Assembly (NCBI GenBank): GCA_022651385.1
Contig: JALCQR010000014.1
Span: forward strand, 1-40,121
Length of the DNA: 40,121 nt
Direction of reading: 5' to 3'
Source: Clostridia bacterium
GTDB lineage: Bacteria > Bacillota > Clostridia > Lachnospirales > Anaerotignaceae
The notes below the pieces were generated by a model. The model made no database searches, was not told the DNA's origin, and was given only the letters and a program-made list of their open reading frames with translations. Positions 1 through 31,062 of the stretch are shown in pieces. A program made the translations under genes and the position numbers. How positions within the stretch are numbered: the first letter of the stretch is position 1; every line of letters starts with the position of its first letter.

Positions 1-43
1 TTTCCAATACATAAACGGCTTTTATAATTCTGTCAGGCCTCAT
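1..43 (-). CDS. Partial CDS running off the left edge
   Basis: Fourteen codons are visible on the minus strand, beginning ATG at 43 and reading MRPDRIIKAVYVLE before the edge. The frame is open to position 1. I do not recognise the family from so few residues. It lies in the same direction as the other small genes of the element and may belong to its early operon. There is no clear Shine-Dalgarno directly upstream, so the start is tentative. Confidence 0.25.
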   Translation of the reverse strand, partial: MRPDRIIKAVYVLE

Positions 44-245
44 TCTCACAACGGTGGCCTGTCCCCAATTCAAAGGGAATCTTTATTTCTTTGACATTTA
101 CTTGTCTACTTTATTGACTATGATCCAGTCATATAAACTTTTTCTCTTATGTTCATAACCGGATATCCATTTCTTTTAATACGTAAAAAGATAAGCTACA
201 TACAAGCTCTGCAAGGCCGATACGGCCATGAGCTTAATTCCTTGC
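44..245. other. Region without a confident gene
   Basis: On the minus strand short peptide-like stretches can be read in different frames, for example KIPFELGTGHRCENEA ending at 33, and GYEHKRKSLYDWIIVNKVDK ending near 106. Each is broken by stops and lacks a start with a ribosome binding site. This looks like a degenerate gene or plain spacer. I see no promoter or terminator I would defend. Confidence 0.3.
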
Positions 246-1546: not shown

Positions 1547-1708
1547 TTAACATTGTTTTTTACTGCCATCTATAGCCAGTGCTGCGCCCTCTGCCATATA
1601 CAAAAACCTTATTCTTTCCGGCTTTGGTAGTTTTTTGATAACTTTTGTTAGTTTTTCCATCTCATCCAAATAGTCATATGGATACATAATTTGTACTGTA
1701 TCAGCCAT
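1547..1708 (-). CDS. Small hypothetical protein, 53 aa, first gene left of the repressor
   Basis: The frame reads MADTVQIMYPYDYLDEMEKL and ends DGSKKQC. A strong AAGGAGG lies 8 bases upstream of the ATG, and a good promoter (TTGAAA, 17 bp, TATCAT) lies upstream at 1750-1778. It is soluble, with a probable helical middle (YLDEMEKLTKVIKKLPKPER). Its place next to and divergent from an XRE repressor is where a Cro/excisionase-type or other early phage gene would sit, but the sequence shows no HTH I can defend. Family unknown. Confidence 0.6.
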   Translation of the reverse strand: MADTVQIMYPYDYLDEMEKLTKVIKKLPKPERIRFLYMAEGAALAIDGSKKQC

Positions 1709-1853: not shown

Positions 1854-2354
1854 ATGTTGAATGATAGAATTAAGCTATTAAGAAAAGAATATCTCAAACT
1901 AACACAAGAAGAATTTGCATCAAAAATCAAAATCAGTAGAGCAAATTTAGGAAGTATTGAAACAAAAAGAATAAATGTAACTGACAGAGTTATATCAGAT
2001 ATATGTAAAGAATTTAATGTAAATAAAGATTGGATACTGAATGGAAGTGAACCTATCTTTATTAAACCTGAAAAATTTAGTCTTGACGCTTTTGTAAAAG
2101 AACACAACATGTCAGATTTAGAACTTGAAATAATAAAAAAATATTTTGAGCTTGAACCAAGTGTAAGAAAAAAATTACTTGGTCTTTTTGAAAATCCAAA
2201 TACTATAGATAAATCAGAGAAATACTCAAGTGAATTCGGTGTTGATAATAATATTGATAAAGAAGTTGAAAGTTATCGCCGAGAGCTTGAGTATGAAAAA
2301 GCTGCGAAAATGTCAGGAGCTTCACAGCCTTTAGAAGACGAAAAGCATGCTTGA
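1854..2354 (+). CDS. XRE-family (Cro/CI-type) repressor, 166 aa
   Basis: Residues 1-65 form a classic helix-turn-helix XRE domain: LRKEYLKLTQEEFASKI, then SRANLGSIETKRINVTDRVI and the DWILNGSEP motif that closes many Clostridial phage repressors. The C-terminal half is acidic and helical, with no LexA-type peptidase residues, so SOS self-cleavage is not expected. The start ATG has AAGGAGG (1839-1845) upstream. The gene reads divergently from the small minus-strand genes and its promoter overlaps an inverted-repeat operator. It probably controls the integrated element. Its 3' end overlaps the next gene by 8 bases. Confidence 0.85.
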   Translation: MLNDRIKLLRKEYLKLTQEEFASKIKISRANLGSIETKRINVTDRVISDICKEFNVNKDWILNGSEPIFIKPEKFSLDAFVKEHNMSDLELEIIKKYFELEPSVRKKLLGLFENPNTIDKSEKYSSEFGVDNNIDKEVESYRRELEYEKAAKMSGASQPLEDEKHA

Positions 2355-2691
2355 AATCAAAATTATAGAAAGAGTGAAAATTTTGGAAATAGAGTTTATA
2401 AAAGAGCTTTGCAGGAATAAAAAAATTCGTTGGACTAATCATATATTTGTACGTCTCGTTCAGCGTGGAATATCAATGAATGATGTCACAACAGCCATTA
2501 TAAACGGAGAGATAATCGAAAACTATCCCGACGATTATCCTTACCCAAGCTGTTTAATACTCGGTCTTACAGTAAATAATAAACCTCTGCATGTTGTATG
2601 CGGAACTAATGGTATTGAACTGTGGCTTATAACCGCTTATTATCCTAACGCTGATATGTGGTCAAGTGATTTTAAGACAAGAAAGGAGTAA
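2347..2691 (+). CDS. DUF4258 protein, putative toxin of a TA pair
   Basis: The 114-aa protein carries the DUF4258 pattern: TNHIFVRLVQRGIS near the start of the domain, then DVTTAIINGEIIENYPDDYP, CLILGL, PLHVVC and ELWLITAYYP. This is an RNase-like BECR fold family often paired with a YgiT-type zinc-finger antitoxin, and the next gene is exactly that. It overlaps the XRE gene by 8 bases and is 5 bases from the antitoxin gene, so the three are probably co-transcribed. Toxicity is inferred from family and context only. An internal start at a later Met is possible. Confidence 0.75.
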   Translation: MLEIKIIERVKILEIEFIKELCRNKKIRWTNHIFVRLVQRGISMNDVTTAIINGEIIENYPDDYPYPSCLILGLTVNNKPLHVVCGTNGIELWLITAYYPNADMWSSDFKTRKE

Positions 2692-2696
2692 TAAAT

Positions 2697-2927
2697 ATGA
2701 CTTGTTTTATGTGCAAAGGGACTCTGGAAAATAAACTTACAAATTTTATTGCCGACATGGGTAATTGTATAATTATTGTAAAAGGTGTCCCTTCTCAGGT
2801 TTGTACACAGTGCGGCGAAATTTCTTATAGCAATGAAGTAGCTGAACAGCTTGAAAAAATTATTGCCGCTACAAAAAACACACTTACTGAAATTGCAATC
2901 GTGCACTATGCCGATAATGTGGCTTGA
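2697..2927 (+). CDS. YgiT-type zinc-finger protein, putative antitoxin
   Basis: The 76-aa protein has two CxxC zinc knuckles (CFMC at residues 3-6 and CTQC near 38), then the conserved GEISYSNEVAEQLEKII helix of the YgiT/MqsA N-terminal domain. It lacks the C-terminal HTH of full MqsA, as is usual for the DUF4258-linked form. ATG at 2697 follows AAAGGAG. It is translated just downstream of the DUF4258 gene and most likely neutralises it. DNA binding may be supplied by the co-transcribed XRE protein, which is an inference. Confidence 0.75.
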   Translation: MTCFMCKGTLENKLTNFIADMGNCIIIVKGVPSQVCTQCGEISYSNEVAEQLEKIIAATKNTLTEIAIVHYADNVA

Positions 2928-3043: not shown

Positions 3044-4243
3044 TTGTCAATTGTTGGTGTGGTTTCCTTGTTTGAAAATTTTTATAAAAAATCTTCTTTG
3101 TATACTGAACAAGAAGCTTCAATACAAAAACTTGTTAATGAAATTTTAGATAAAAATGACAAAATAAAAGAACTTACAGATAGTCTTGATAATATAAAAA
3201 ATTCATATGCTTCTCTAATGTCTGATAATGAACAATTGGAAGAAAAGCTGAGACAGACTTCCACTAATCTTACTTATTTTAAAAATAAGTATGAAGACTT
3301 AAAAAGTTTATGTGATTCAGTATCTGTTATAAAAAGTAAAATCAAAAATTTAGAAAATATGTTGGATTTAAAGAAAAATGAATACGATAGAGCCCTTGTT
3401 CAATTACAAATTAAGCAAGATAAAGAAACTGAATCTGCAAATGAAAAATACCAACAGTCATTAAAAGAACTAAAATTTGAGTATATTAAAAAATATAGAG
3501 CTTCAAGATTTTCATACATAAGAACTCTTTCTAATCTTAAATTAAAATTCTCAAAACAAATTGACGAGTATGAAAACTCACTATTTCTTAATGAATATAA
3601 AAATCTTCGTAATTATATATCTAAAGAAGAATTTTTCTCTCTTGAATCCGCAAAACGTTACCAGCTTGCACTTGATAGATATAATAACGTTGCTTCAAAA
3701 AGCAGTCAGCGCATAGGCCTTGAATATGAAAGATATATAGGTTACCTGTTGGAAATGAAAGGTTATACTGTACGGTATCATGGAGCATTAAATAAATTTA
3801 AAGATAATGGTATTGATATTATAGCTGAAGACAGAAAAACGATTATTGCAATTCAATGCAAAAATTGGAAATCTACCTCAGTAGTCAGAGAAAATACCAT
3901 AACTCAGTTAAGCGGCAGTTTACAGCTTTTAAAAAACGATATGCCTTCTAAATCTAAAAAATATGTTGCTATACTTTGTACAACAACAAATCTCTCCAAT
4001 GAAGCATTAGAAAATGCGAAAAAATTAAATGTGCGTGTATATGAAAATTTTAAATTAGAGCCCTATCCACTTATTAAATGTAATAATTCAAAATCAGAGA
4101 AAATATATCATATGCCGTTTGACCAAATGTACGATAAGGTTTTTATCAGACCTAAAGATGGTGATTTTTATGCCTCTACAACTTCGGAAGCAGAAAGCGC
4201 AGGATATCGCCATGCACATGTTTGGCACCCTGATAATGTTTGA
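3044..4243 (+). CDS. Mrr-family restriction endonuclease with coiled coil
   Basis: Residues about 15-200 are a long charged coiled coil. A restriction-endonuclease-like Mrr domain follows at about 225-330: IGLEYERYIGYLLEMKGYTV, the acidic GIDIIAED strand and the QCKNW motif give the D...QxK catalytic core. The C-terminus (KIYHMPFDQMYDKVFI...DGDFYASTTSEAESAGYR) looks like the small Ada-like module seen on some nucleases. It probably cuts foreign or modified DNA. The start is doubtful: only TTG at 3044, without a ribosome binding site, and overlapping an opposing -35 box. The gene may be 5'-truncated, or may start at GTG 3059 or TTG 3068. Confidence 0.75.
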   Translation: MSIVGVVSLFENFYKKSSLYTEQEASIQKLVNEILDKNDKIKELTDSLDNIKNSYASLMSDNEQLEEKLRQTSTNLTYFKNKYEDLKSLCDSVSVIKSKIKNLENMLDLKKNEYDRALVQLQIKQDKETESANEKYQQSLKELKFEYIKKYRASRFSYIRTLSNLKLKFSKQIDEYENSLFLNEYKNLRNYISKEEFFSLESAKRYQLALDRYNNVASKSSQRIGLEYERYIGYLLEMKGYTVRYHGALNKFKDNGIDIIAEDRKTIIAIQCKNWKSTSVVRENTITQLSGSLQLLKNDMPSKSKKYVAILCTTTNLSNEALENAKKLNVRVYENFKLEPYPLIKCNNSKSEKIYHMPFDQMYDKVFIRPKDGDFYASTTSEAESAGYRHAHVWHPDNV

Positions 4244-4353
4244 CCCACAAACGGTATCTTGTCTTATAAAAGTTTGTAAAATCAATTATTTAATTTCCAA
4301 ATTCTCACTTTGAAATTATTATTTAACTCTAACAATTTGAGGAAGTGACAGAC

Positions 4354-5823
4354 ATGGAACATGCGGCAATTTATATCAGAGTATCAACCGATGAGCAGAC
4401 AGAGTATTCCCCTGCCGCACAAAAAACCGAAATAATGGAATATGCGCATAAAAACGATATGCTTGTAGATTCGGAGCATGTCTTTATCGATGAAGGCATA
4501 AGCGGCAAGTCTGCCAAAAACAGGCCGGCTTTTCAACATATGATAGCTCTTGCACGCTCAAAATCACACCCTTTTTCCGTTATTCTTGTACATAAATTTG
4601 ACCGCTTTGCCAGAAATAAAGAAGACAGTGTTATTTATAAGGCTCTGCTTAAAAAAGACGGCGTGCGTGTAATTTCCGTAAAAGAGCCGATACCCGATGA
4701 TGATAAATTTGCCGTTATATATGAAAGTATGCTTGAAGCAATGGCCGAATATTATAGCCTAAACCTTGCCGAGGAAGTCAAAAAGACAATGCTCCAAAAA
4801 GCAAAAGCCGGAGAATATCAGACAGCGCCCTCTTTCGGTTATATGGCTAAAGACGGAAAACTTGTCATAAAGGAAGATGAGGCAAAGTATGTAAAATATA
4901 TCTTTGACCAGTATGTAAACAATAATAAGACAATTCTTGAAATTGCAAAGAGCCTTAATGCTATGGGAGTTAAGACAAAGCGCAAAAATGCAATTGAAAA
5001 CAGGACTGTCCAGTACATACTTCTGAATCCCGTTTATATTGGATACCTTCGTTGGACGCCTTCCGGAAAGACACGCAGAAATTATAAAAATCCCGATACA
5101 CTAATAGTTAAGTCGACTCATGCGCCTATAGTGTCAGAAGATATATTTCTTGCGGCACGTGAAAAATGGGAGCTGAACCGAAAGAAAAATGTCCCGCACC
5201 GCCGTCCGCTTACTGAAGGCAAGCATTGGCTAAGCGGTCTTGTAAAATGCCACTCATGCGGCCGCAGTCTTATTGTATCGAGAAATTATAAATACGGTCA
5301 ATTTTCTCTCCAGTGCGGCGGGTATAATCACGGCCAGTGCCACGTTTCCCACTCAATTACTTCAAGAAAACTTATTCCCACTGTTCTTAACCAGCTTTAC
5401 AGTATCGCTACTTCTTCAGATGTGTATAATTCTTTCAGCATTGCGGATACCACCTCAACAGAGTGCGCGGAAAAAATCGACGAAATAAAAAAACAGCTTT
5501 CACGCCTTGACTTAAGCCTTCAGAAAGCAAAACAAGCTTACCTTGCCGGGATTGATGATTTAAACGAGTATAGGGAAAACAAAAACATGATTACAAAAAA
5601 TAAAACCGAGCTTGAAGCCCAGCTTAAAAAACTAAATATTCAGCATACAAAAGATGTTCTTACGGACAAAGATTTTCGCAATTCCTTACTTGATGTTTAT
5701 GAGGCTTTGTCCTCTGCCACTGTAGACATGGAAACGAAAAAGATGATAGCCCGCCGGTCCATACAAAAAATAGTATATAACAGCGAGACAAATTCAATAA
5801 GGCTTTTTCTTTTTACCAAATAG
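4354..5823 (+). CDS. Large serine recombinase (element integrase), 489 aa
   Basis: The N-terminal resolvase domain has IYIRVSTDEQ with the catalytic Ser at about residue 10, and VHKFDRFARNKED as the second conserved block. The recombinase domain follows (KAGEYQTAPSFGY to PHRRPLTEGKHWLSG), then a zinc ribbon (CHSCGR...CGGYNHGQC) and a C-terminal coiled coil that is typical for controlling excision. Length is normal for the family. I prefer ATG 4354 because GAGG at 4339 is too close to GTG 4345. The stop codon lies immediately before the interrupted cotJC frame, so this is the integrase of the element. No separate directionality factor is recognised in the window. Confidence 0.93.
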   Translation: MEHAAIYIRVSTDEQTEYSPAAQKTEIMEYAHKNDMLVDSEHVFIDEGISGKSAKNRPAFQHMIALARSKSHPFSVILVHKFDRFARNKEDSVIYKALLKKDGVRVISVKEPIPDDDKFAVIYESMLEAMAEYYSLNLAEEVKKTMLQKAKAGEYQTAPSFGYMAKDGKLVIKEDEAKYVKYIFDQYVNNNKTILEIAKSLNAMGVKTKRKNAIENRTVQYILLNPVYIGYLRWTPSGKTRRNYKNPDTLIVKSTHAPIVSEDIFLAAREKWELNRKKNVPHRRPLTEGKHWLSGLVKCHSCGRSLIVSRNYKYGQFSLQCGGYNHGQCHVSHSITSRKLIPTVLNQLYSIATSSDVYNSFSIADTTSTECAEKIDEIKKQLSRLDLSLQKAKQAYLAGIDDLNEYRENKNMITKNKTELEAQLKKLNIQHTKDVLTDKDFRNSLLDVYEALSSATVDMETKKMIARRSIQKIVYNSETNSIRLFLFTK

Positions 5824-5850
5824 TCATACCCTAATACAGTACGGTGGTGC
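5820..5850. other. Right attachment junction inside cotJC
   Basis: The recombinase stop TAG is at 5821-5823. Reading on in the cotJC frame gives SHTL and then IQYGGADGELGASVRYLSQ, where clear CotJC similarity begins at about 5834. The crossover therefore lies within roughly 5824-5845. The other half-site and the first ~26 codons of cotJC should lie at the far left end of the element, outside this window. The exact core dinucleotide cannot be fixed from one side. Confidence 0.7.
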
Positions 5851-6361
5851 AGATGGTGAATTAGGAGCTTCTGTTCGGTACCTCAGTCAAAAATTTACTA
5901 TGGTTACCCCGCAGGCAAGAGCCGTTTTAAATGATATTGCTACAGAAGAATTTGCACACGAAGAAATGATGGGCACAATAACATGCCAGCTTTTATGCGG
6001 ACTGTGTCCTGATGAAATTATTAAAGGCGGACTTGATCCTTATTATGTCGGTCACGGATTAGGCGTTTATCCTTGCAGCGCAGCCGGCGTTCCGTTTTCG
6101 GCAAGCGCACTTCAGAGCAAAGGCGACCCTGTAACAGACCTTTATGAAGATTTAGCTGCTGAAAAAAAGGCTTTGAAAACATACGATTATCTTCTTGACC
6201 TTACAATGGACCCTGATGTTATAAAACCGCTTAAGTTTTTAAGAGAAAGAGAAATCGTACATTTCCAGAGATTCGGCGAAGCACTCGATATAGTAAAATT
6301 CTATTTAGGTGAAAACAAAACTTTCTGTATGCCTGAAGTTGAATCTGATAAATGTAAATGA
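5824..6361 (+). pseudogene. cotJC: 3' part of cotJC, spore coat manganese-catalase-like protein
   Basis: The frame is open from the recombinase stop onward and encodes about 170 residues matching CotJC from the QYGG block to the end: ATEEFAHEEMM (metal-site E..H), AAGVPFSASALQSKGDPVTDLYEDLAAE and FLREREIVHFQRFGEAL. CotJC is a mother-cell coat protein made under sigma-E in Bacillus and related to Mn catalase. The usual ~26 N-terminal residues (the MWVYEKKLQYP-type start and the LA.YLI helix) are absent because an integrated element precedes them. No mutation is visible in the remaining part, which suggests that precise excision restores the gene. Confidence 0.85.
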
Positions 6362-30364: not shown

Positions 30365-30844
30365 ATGGAAAATGTTTTAGTAGTTTATTATTCTCACTCA
30401 TCAAACACCAGTAAGCTTGCGAAAATGATTGCAGAAAAAGTCGGAGGAAAGCTATACGAGATTATTCCAAAGTCGGCTTATCCCAATGACTACAATGCTG
30501 TTGTAGAGCAGGCAAGAAAAGAAATTCAGGCAGGTTTTCGTCCGCCGCTTAAAACCAATATCGAAAACATTGATATTTATAATACAGTTTTTGTGGGCAC
30601 ACCGAATTGGCTGAGCTCTGTCGCACCGCCTGTGGCAACGTTTCTCGAGTCCAATGATTTGTCCGGCAAAACTGTCATACCTTTTTGTACCAACGGAGGA
30701 GGCGGCTTTGGTCATATAGAACATGATATTCAAAAATTATGTTCAAATTCAAAAATATTGCCCGGATTTTCCGCTTACGGCAGCAGCATCAAAGATACAG
30801 AAGTATCAGCATGGCTTAAAAGAATCGGCATTCAAGAAAAATAA
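30365..30844 (+). CDS. Flavodoxin-like protein, 159 aa
   Basis: The FMN phosphate-binding loop is YYSHSSNTSKLAKMIAEKVGG near the N-terminus. VFVGTPNWLSSVAPPVATFL and FCTNGGGGFGHIEHDI give the two isoalloxazine loops. It acts as a one- or two-electron carrier or NAD(P)H/quinone reductase. It is alone behind the MerR-controlled promoter, so expression should be inducible. AAGGAGCGG precedes the ATG. Confidence 0.9.
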   Translation: MENVLVVYYSHSSNTSKLAKMIAEKVGGKLYEIIPKSAYPNDYNAVVEQARKEIQAGFRPPLKTNIENIDIYNTVFVGTPNWLSSVAPPVATFLESNDLSGKTVIPFCTNGGGGFGHIEHDIQKLCSNSKILPGFSAYGSSIKDTEVSAWLKRIGIQEK

Positions 30845-30915
30845 CAAAACAAGAAAACACAAAACAGCCTAATAATTTAATTTTTTTCGGGCATTCTAAA
30901 TCCGAGGTGAATAGC

Positions 30916-31062
30916 ATGGATAAAAATAAAAAACAGCCCATAGGACACAAGCCTGAAAAAAATGAAAGGCACATTTCCAAAGCATATCCGGTAATTGATA
31001 CCGACCTTGCACGGGATAACATTGAAAATGATACGCCTAATGCCGACCTTCAAGACTTATGA
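30916..31062 (+). CDS. Small hydrophilic protein, 48 aa
   Basis: The frame reads MDKNKKQPIGHKPEKNERHI and ends PNADLQDL. CCGAGGTGAATAGC before the ATG gives a good ribosome site. The protein is charged, with no hydrophobic stretch, and contains SKAYPVIDTDLARDNIEND. It looks like a conserved short protein rather than chance, given the clean frame and codon use, but I do not recognise the family. It is 71 bases after the flavodoxin gene and may share its transcript. Confidence 0.6.
   Translation: MDKNKKQPIGHKPEKNERHISKAYPVIDTDLARDNIENDTPNADLQDL

Follow-up and report, generated by a model that had tools for sequence, protein, structure and literature searches.

In the draft genome of Clostridia bacterium GCA_022651385.1 (2.61 Mb in 19 contigs), the spore-coat gene cotJC is divided over two contigs, one of which, C14 (positions 1–40121), is referred to here as the window. 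The sequences of the two flanks show that a mobile element lies inside codons 28–32 of cotJC. We give a probability of roughly two in three to the reading that the recombinase encoded by this element excises it in the sporulating mother cell, thereby restoring cotJC, and that this arrangement is common in the family Anaerotignaceae. The kind of element is known, as it is like the skin element of sigK; the target gene is new, and several interruptions of one sporulation gene are unusual. We are not aware of a spore gene in which several such elements have been described. In what follows, genomes are designated by G, loci by L and contigs by C numbers.

The window contains the 3' piece of cotJC, which codes for most of this Mn-catalase-family protein. 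The first codon present is that of Q28, located 13 nt after the stop codon of a large serine recombinase gene, and codons 1–27 are absent from the frame, which then stays open until the TGA at 6359–6361. An earlier note, made from the window alone, had estimated 10 nt and 26 codons, and its description of a recombinase gene ending close to an open, 5'-truncated cotJC frame is accurate. The 5' piece was out of its sight: the window corresponds to an entire contig, of which the first base already lies within the element. This piece, residues 1–32, is located at C3:267160–267254, directly downstream of cotJA and cotJB. It ends in a 15-nt core, ACAGTACGGTGGTGC, which is the same as that at the right junction in the window; a 5' fragment with a matching short core is what the note had expected at the far end of the element. 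The core is immediately followed by a stop codon and then by 6.3 kb up to the end of C3. Joining the two pieces in silico at the ACAGTACGGTGGTGC core gives an exact, in-frame gene of 201 codons without a stop, coding for full CotJC.

Both pieces score over the cut-off of PF05067, the alignment on C3 covering residues 1–34 (C3:267160–267261). The sole match to CotJB (PF12652) in the genome lies directly upstream of the 5' piece, preceded by a frame that we take to be cotJA from its position and likeness, so that the gene order is cotJA-cotJB-cotJC. PF05067 matches three places in the genome: the window piece, the C3 piece and a complete but distant Mn-catalase-family paralogue (C7:83296–83919, 35% identity). 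A second intact cotJC, which would have spoken against the note's proposal, was not found in this search. The presence elsewhere in the genome of the complement with the same 15-nt core confirms that the split is more than chance. The arrangement shares three properties with skin-like elements: a mother-cell sporulation gene in a 5' and a 3' piece, a serine recombinase encoded at one end of the element, and identical cores at the element ends that restore the frame. The cores are on different contigs here and on one contig and strand in G022 and G027.

Both pieces are open frames, and each might be expressed on its own, the two products then assembling into a split protein. This is extremely improbable. 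The earliest ATG, GTG or TTG of the 3' frame is at position 5900, which corresponds to residue 49, so residues 28–48, with the putative metal ligand E35 among them, cannot come from the 3' piece alone. From the 5' piece, a peptide of 32 residues would result, and in two related genomes, G014 and G015, cotJC is in four pieces.

The element measures at least 12 kb (6.3 and 5.8 kb plus a repeat). Its recombinase frame begins with a GTG at 4345, with an alternative ATG at 4354, and ends with a TAG at 5821–5823; the enzyme is presumed to act on the two cores. Scores were far below the cut-offs for XisF, the excisase of the fdxN element (NF041201; 112.4 bits, cut-off 375), and for the SCCmec recombinases CcrA, CcrB and CcrC (85.3–142.1 bits, cut-offs 700–900), and these assignments were rejected. 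None of the ten element proteins that were compared with Pfam was recognised as a phage structural, packaging or lysis protein (coverage of the smaller open reading frames, or ORFs, was thinner, in some cases limited to NCBIfam, and the repeat between the contigs lies in an assembly gap), and the idea that the element is a prophage was dropped. The left part, on C3, contains DpnII-type restriction-modification genes and further ORFs, as well as genes for a protein of 211 amino acids and for one with an Ntox44 domain; the remaining cargo lies in the window (see the table below). C14 starts with 127 nt common to the starts of C2 and C17, and the terminal repeat of C3 recurs where C7 starts and where C19 (14,451 nt) ends. 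The contig ends look like those of a single repeat in three copies, which three sequences enter and three leave, so that C3-repeat-C14 is one of three possible pairings. It is the likely one, being favoured by the two cotJC halves.

Table. Features of the cotJC element and related loci (window positions unless another contig or locus is named).
Feature	Position	Strand	Basis or remark
cotJC 3' piece, residues 28–201 (Mn-catalase-family spore-coat protein)	5837..6361	+	PF05067, 6.7e-36
Right junction core ACAGTACGGTGGTGC, codes QYGGA	5836..5850	+	same 15 nt at C3:267240-267254 (L023 8717-8731)
Large serine recombinase, 492 aa; Resolvase, Recombinase and zinc ribbon domains	4345..5823	+	PF00239, PF07508, PF13408 over cut-off
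Cargo: 399-aa protein, Mrr-type restriction endonuclease domain	3044..4243	+	Pfam
Cargo: 76-aa protein with two CxxC pairs, adjoins DUF4258 gene	2697..2927	+	no Pfam match
Cargo: 114-aa DUF4258 protein	2347..2691	+	Pfam
Cargo: 166-aa helix-turn-helix regulator	1854..2354	+	Pfam
53-aa ORF in element, weak candidate for a small accessory factor	1547..1708	-	no Pfam or PHROG family
Repeat end	1..127	+	exact match to C2:1-127; its 19-127 equal C17:1-109
Left part of element	C3:267255-273523		
Cargo: 485-aa protein, C-terminal Ntox44 (bacterial toxin 44) domain	L023 13271-14728	-	E 1.3e-09
Split sigG	L237 576-1782, equal to C6 about 120421-121615	-	

A PF05067 search of 58 genomes of the same family, many of them metagenome assemblies, followed by reading of the pieces, found cotJC in pieces in 26 and intact in 23; in nine it was absent or unclear (G011, G013, G036, G041, G045, G046, G047, G050 and G054). 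G009 has an intact cotJC plus a stray 5' fragment, and G053 was scored as split solely from a contig ending at the break. The family includes Anaerotignum neopropionicum DSM-3847 (G020) and Anaerotignum sp. MB30-C6 (G027), whose cotJC elements measure 4.4 kb (L106/L156) and 37 kb, respectively. In half of the split genomes (13 of 26: G005, G012, G014, G015, G020, G022, G025, G027, G028, G030, G033, G039 and G044, with G022 and G027 being single contigs), at least one interruption has both its sides on one contig. In the other 13 the pieces lie on different contigs, and six of these genomes have a recombinase at a broken end; same-contig pieces, a recombinase at the broken end or both support 19 of the 26. 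Same-contig elements are 2.2–43 kb long, the shortest being the site-2 element of G033, and G005 contains two, of 30 and 19 kb. A short ORF at 30820–31059 of the window (plus strand) resembles a 46-amino acid ORF inside the G020 and G022 cotJC elements (2.7e-28).

The breaks cluster near residues 28–34, 60–69 and 132–137 of cotJC (sites 1, 2 and 3), and ten of the 26 split genomes are broken at two or three of these places (G005, G007, G014, G015, G016, G026, G028, G030, G032 and G038; nine without G030, where sites 1 and 3 are contig ends only). In-silico joins were made with a minimum core of 3 nt and five intact references, choosing the best-fitting join. All 36 joins, from 28 genomes (23 of the family and five named others), are open, with the expected motif whole in 34 and one residue dropped in two (G015 site 2 and L167 site 3); the cores are 3–17 nt long, the short ones being weak evidence. 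Outside this survey, 80 of the 88 loci in named genomes that match the window recombinase were examined, and at least 50 have a cotJC piece within 400 nt, eight of these from the same family. Loci with a piece include members of the Lachnospiraceae, Oscillospiraceae and Defluviitaleaceae, and Petroclostridium, Christensenella, Evtepia and Anaerosolibacter. In a phage collection, cotJC-like matches occur in 11 records, all lacking annotation.

Contigs stop within 3 nt of cotJC break sites in G030 (L112, L139 and L140; two sites) and G053 (L144; one site). Mixed joined and split forms would give such ends, and they could reflect infrequent excision and reintegration of the elements during growth, by active lysogeny or phase variation, with a mixed population and no tie to the mother cell. 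The skin element of C. difficile is compatible with this, as its recombinase is expressed constitutively and timing lies with the directionality factor alone, which is under sigma-E and SpoIIID (PMC5025042). We nevertheless hold such a mixed population to be quite improbable, because contig ends at repeats are ordinary assembly behaviour and because it is during sporulation that the elements reported from mother-cell genes are excised (PMC6957869, PMC5595907).

The break sites were mapped onto the protein by alignment to the solved Mn catalase 1jku, in which we take E35, E66, H69 and E148 to be the Mn ligands. The common site-1 core codes for Y29-G30-G31, just before E35, the common site-2 core spans T63-E64-E65, beside H68, and the site-3 core spans A134-A135-E136. 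Other short cores are found at the junctions of G033 and G049 at site 2 and of G028 at site 1. Judged by this alignment, the three break places appear to be on or beside putative Mn-ligand codons.

At 22 of the 40 interruptions in the 26 split family genomes, a recombinase of at least 250 residues is encoded within 400 nt of the broken end, on the element side. In the wider set, three layouts are seen: the recombinase gene is codirectional with the 3' piece and adjoins it (26 site-1 loci), is convergent and adjoins the 5' piece (19 site-1 loci), or, for enzymes of the same clade, is convergent and located 31–284 nt from the 3' end of cotJC (L125, L127, L188, L196, L199, L201 and L206). In G056 and G057, the 3' piece of cotJC abuts a gene that by eye is murA-like, not a recombinase gene. 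The site-2 elements of G033 and G034 contain short serine recombinases of about 290 residues (L113 4461–5327 and L143 2643–3530, respectively).

A tree was made of 70 of 72 recombinases, leaving out the short (<380 residues) enzymes of G033 and G034 and removing duplicate loci of one genome. Three of its rows were read by hand: L142_2452 as site 3, L208_369 as site 1 and L198_7989 as a break near residue 125. Counting L142_2452, the site-3 recombinases form one clade of six rows (support 100/99). The site-2 recombinases of the family form one clade of eight (100/100), and those of site 1, except L198_9768, fall in one large clade of 54 rows, in which the window enzyme groups with those of G005, G015, G020, G022, G026 and G027 (99/91). 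Outside the family, site-1-class enzymes are found at a site-2 break (L017) and at the break near residue 125 (L198); the branches of L198_9768 and L208_2034 are long and unsure. The site-3 recombinases of G001 and G026 are 86% identical in amino acid sequence, with saturated cotJC divergence between these genomes, and those of G001 and L210 are 89% identical. They look to have spread between distant hosts. In viral contigs, a search for related enzymes yielded 19 loci. A second recombinase of MB30-C6 (L153/L184, C1:928907–930319) has an upstream sequence, CATAAG...CATACA, near-identical to that of cotJC-associated ones and adjoins an Asn/Cys-rich short ORF, possibly another coat gene.

The split copies of cotJC remain under purifying selection. 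No stop was seen in the cotJC codons of 49 genomes (26 split and 23 intact), which is partly by construction as pieces were defined as open frames, and codon coverage is near complete where all pieces are present. Several wider PF05067 alignments did contain stops; these were read as alignments extending beyond the break. Between split copies within genera, the ratio of nonsynonymous to synonymous substitution rates (dN/dS) is 0.009–0.095 in 20 of 26 pairs, the other six having been dropped because their dS is saturated; the two copies of such a pair do not always share the same interruption. The median ratio of the corresponding proportions of differences (pN/pS) is 0.074 for split pairs, 0.127 for intact pairs (n = 18) and 0.107 for mixed pairs (n = 55).

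In nine of 12 same-site, same-genus pairs, the recombinases have dN/dS values of 0.07–0.27 and a dS close to that of cotJC, for instance 1.02 and 1.15 for recombinase and cotJC, respectively, in G020–G026, 1.48 and 1.31 in G020–G027, 1.01 and 0.84 in G028–G030 and 0.99 and 0.87 in G033–G034. The match is least close in G022–G026 (1.86 and 1.29) and in G056–G057 (0.82 and 0.52, for a recombinase at the 3' end). Values of dS above 1 are imprecise, and recombinase pairs with less than 55% identity were not scored. The simplest reading of the nine co-diverging pairs is that cotJC pieces and recombinase have been inherited together since before the species split, both under selection. Because of the purifying selection and the similar divergence of recombinase and cotJC in these nine pairs, we infer that the split cotJC is rebuilt and used.

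By this reading, the element would have integrated into cotJC by means of the large serine recombinase that it encodes. During sporulation, the same enzyme, together with a directionality factor, would remove the element in the mother cell, join the cores and restore cotJC, and the forespore chromosome would retain the element. In B. subtilis, cotJC is listed among the sigma-E (mother-cell) genes (PMC3416734). With three places in cotJC, up to three elements at once and distinct recombinase lineages, one to three excisions would be needed for full CotJC in members of the family. The earlier note had proposed such mother-cell excision for the window element. The 5' piece and its core, the purifying selection and the co-divergence of the recombinase all strengthen that proposal, which lacks, in the window element, a CATA motif and a recognisable directionality factor.

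A candidate for the latter was found in other elements. Among the 72 close recombinases for which 3 kb or more of upstream sequence is available, 28 have, up to 8 kb upstream, a gene for a member of a family of companion proteins of about 65 residues (one such gene, for a 65-residue member, is at L107 6500–6703). Thirteen of the 28 are within 500 nt of the recombinase and 27 are on the opposite strand; Pfam and PHROG give the family no useful name. In the Anaerotignum elements, the small companion gene is preceded by a ATAGGACAA...CATA motif. More generally, ATAGNACA-N11-15-CATA occurs before seven of 37 companion genes and one of 2292 control ORFs, a contrast whose p-value is overstated because the rows are related. 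The loci with the motif are four Anaerotignum site-1 elements, the second MB30-C6 locus (L153), L120, and L015 and L205, the last two with identical letters. The motif is promoter-like and may be of the sigma-E/SpoIIID type. As a general motif before cotJA, GGACA...CATA was rejected, being present in only one of 44 regions. The companion family is a candidate directionality factor.

A fuller picture can be drawn from these data, to which we give somewhat less than even odds. It is that cotJC of spore formers is a standing gene in pieces, like nifD of cyanobacteria, with three recombinase lineages settled on or beside metal-ligand motifs (QYGG..E35, TEE65xAH68 and AAE136). Several of these would be co-inherited, and they would act in turn in the dying mother cell on up to four segments, partly timed by a new family of small directionality factors under a sigma-E/SpoIIID-type promoter.

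A number of observations weigh against programmed excision. Three of the 12 same-site, same-genus pairs do not track cotJC, all at site 2: for G014–G015 the recombinase dS is 1.46 and cotJC is saturated, and for G028–G032 and G030–G032 the recombinases are less than 55% identical. A recombinase of at least 250 residues within 400 nt is missing at 18 of the 40 family interruptions. Among these are contig ends (G030 sites 1 and 3, and G053), a partial recombinase of less than 250 residues (G028 site 1) and recombinases that are more distant or of another kind (G005 and G015 site 3, G014 sites 1 and 3, G040 and G044); at G007, G016, G049, G056 and G057 none was seen. Our confidence in the excision reading is lowered by these two results. 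The link between C3 and C14 across the element is inferred from contig ends and gene halves, and no junction of an excised circle of the window element was found in viral contigs.

The control signals are similarly incomplete. There is no CATA motif in the 160 nt upstream of the window recombinase, no directionality factor was recognised in the window element, and the companion gene and its promoter-like motif are absent from it; 44 of the 72 close recombinases likewise lack the companion. The motif CATANNNT occurs within 70 nt of 24 of 68 cotJC-associated recombinases and seven of 44 others, a weak enrichment (p = 0.03, uncorrected), and within 140 nt of 33 of 68 and 18 of 44, respectively (p = 0.45). 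It was considered as a mother-cell promoter, being enriched over control ORFs (86 of 997 within 70 nt), but TATAAT is also more frequent before the recombinases (18 of 68, versus 95 of 997). CATANNNT is not relied on, because TATAAT is enriched too and because the difference from the 44 other recombinases is small and vanishes within 140 nt.

The capacity of the window strain to sporulate adds to these doubts. Spo0A domains are present, as is a sigK-like gene with an undivided frame (296.2 bits, cut-off 298.65). The sole sigG, however, is interrupted by an insert of 429 nt that has no long ORF and lies between two copies of CCAATGA; joining at this repeat restores YAVPMIIGEIRR. The insert is single copy in the genome, has no convincing Rfam match and folds no better than shuffled sequences (z = +1.02), pairing GGUCAAAA with UUUUGACA near its ends. 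In 45 of the 57 other genomes sigG is one full-length match; in the rest it is partial, at contig ends, absent or in two adjacent frames (G004). If the insert is real and fixed, the window strain may be unable to complete sporulation.

Some of these observations would also fit a simpler account, in which cotJC is only a safe landing site: a conserved sequence in a dispensable gene, of which the split copy is dead until a chance exit. In C. difficile, coat catalases of the CotJC type can be dispensable (PMC11222575), and the window genome contains a divergent paralogue of cotJC. Related recombinases are found elsewhere too, as a cotJC piece is missing from 30 of the 80 named loci (of which three end less than 300 nt from the recombinase, and in L231 and L232 the recombinase frame was unread). 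The apparent horizontal spread of the site-3 recombinases and the missing CATA-type promoter before the window recombinase point the same way. Dead genes would, however, not be expected to show such low dN/dS values nor nine co-diverging pairs out of 12, and the lack of stops in the 26 split genomes, partly by construction as it is, also speaks against them. We therefore regard a mere landing site as unlikely and retain excision in the mother cell as the preferred reading.

Split sporulation genes described before are sigK, spoVFB, spoVR, spsM and gerE (PMC6957869) and yabG (PMC10747680). No description of cotJC as a split or rebuilt gene was found in the open-licence literature, as far as its text was available, which is not proof of absence; in the available main text of a survey of serine recombinases (PMC10083194), the terms 'catalase' and 'spore coat' do not occur. 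The closest parallel is skin in sigK of C. difficile and B. subtilis (PMC5025042): in C. difficile, the 3' part of a mother-cell gene directly follows the gene of the recombinase, and excision makes the interrupted gene whole again. The cotJC element differs in that it targets a coat protein gene, not a sigma factor gene, in that it carries DpnII-type restriction-modification genes and a gene for an Mrr-type nuclease, and in that both its excision and its directionality factor are hypothetical. The gin element, located in gerE of Bacillus cereus ATCC10987 (PMC5595907), is not a prophage, as also seems to hold for the cotJC element; it carries restriction-modification genes and serine recombinases, interrupts a mother-cell gene and is removed in sporulation. 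However, gin has three recombinases, 28.6 kb and a 9-bp core, where in the cotJC element one recombinase was found, in at least 12 kb and with a 15-nt core.

One gene cut at several places by several elements is known from the interruption elements of heterocysts, with ten genes containing multiple elements and four elements in nifD of Rivularia (PMC4874684), although these belong to cyanobacteria and nitrogen fixation. The nearest mention in the literature is the phi027 prophage of C. difficile R20291, the attR of which adjoins CDR20291_1465, a CotJC homologue; phi027 is a functional phage, and in the available part of that paper the gene is not described as split or rebuilt (PMC11222575).

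If the preferred reading is true, programmed DNA rearrangement would be commoner in spore formers than reports on single genes suggest. About half of the family genomes with a recognisable cotJC (26 of 49) carry it in pieces, ten of them with several interruptions. Intact and split orthologues within genera offer a natural comparison, in isolates such as Anaerotignum neopropionicum DSM 3847, which presumably sporulates. Split cotJC genes are also a source of many site-specific recombinases with a small number of conserved target sites in common.

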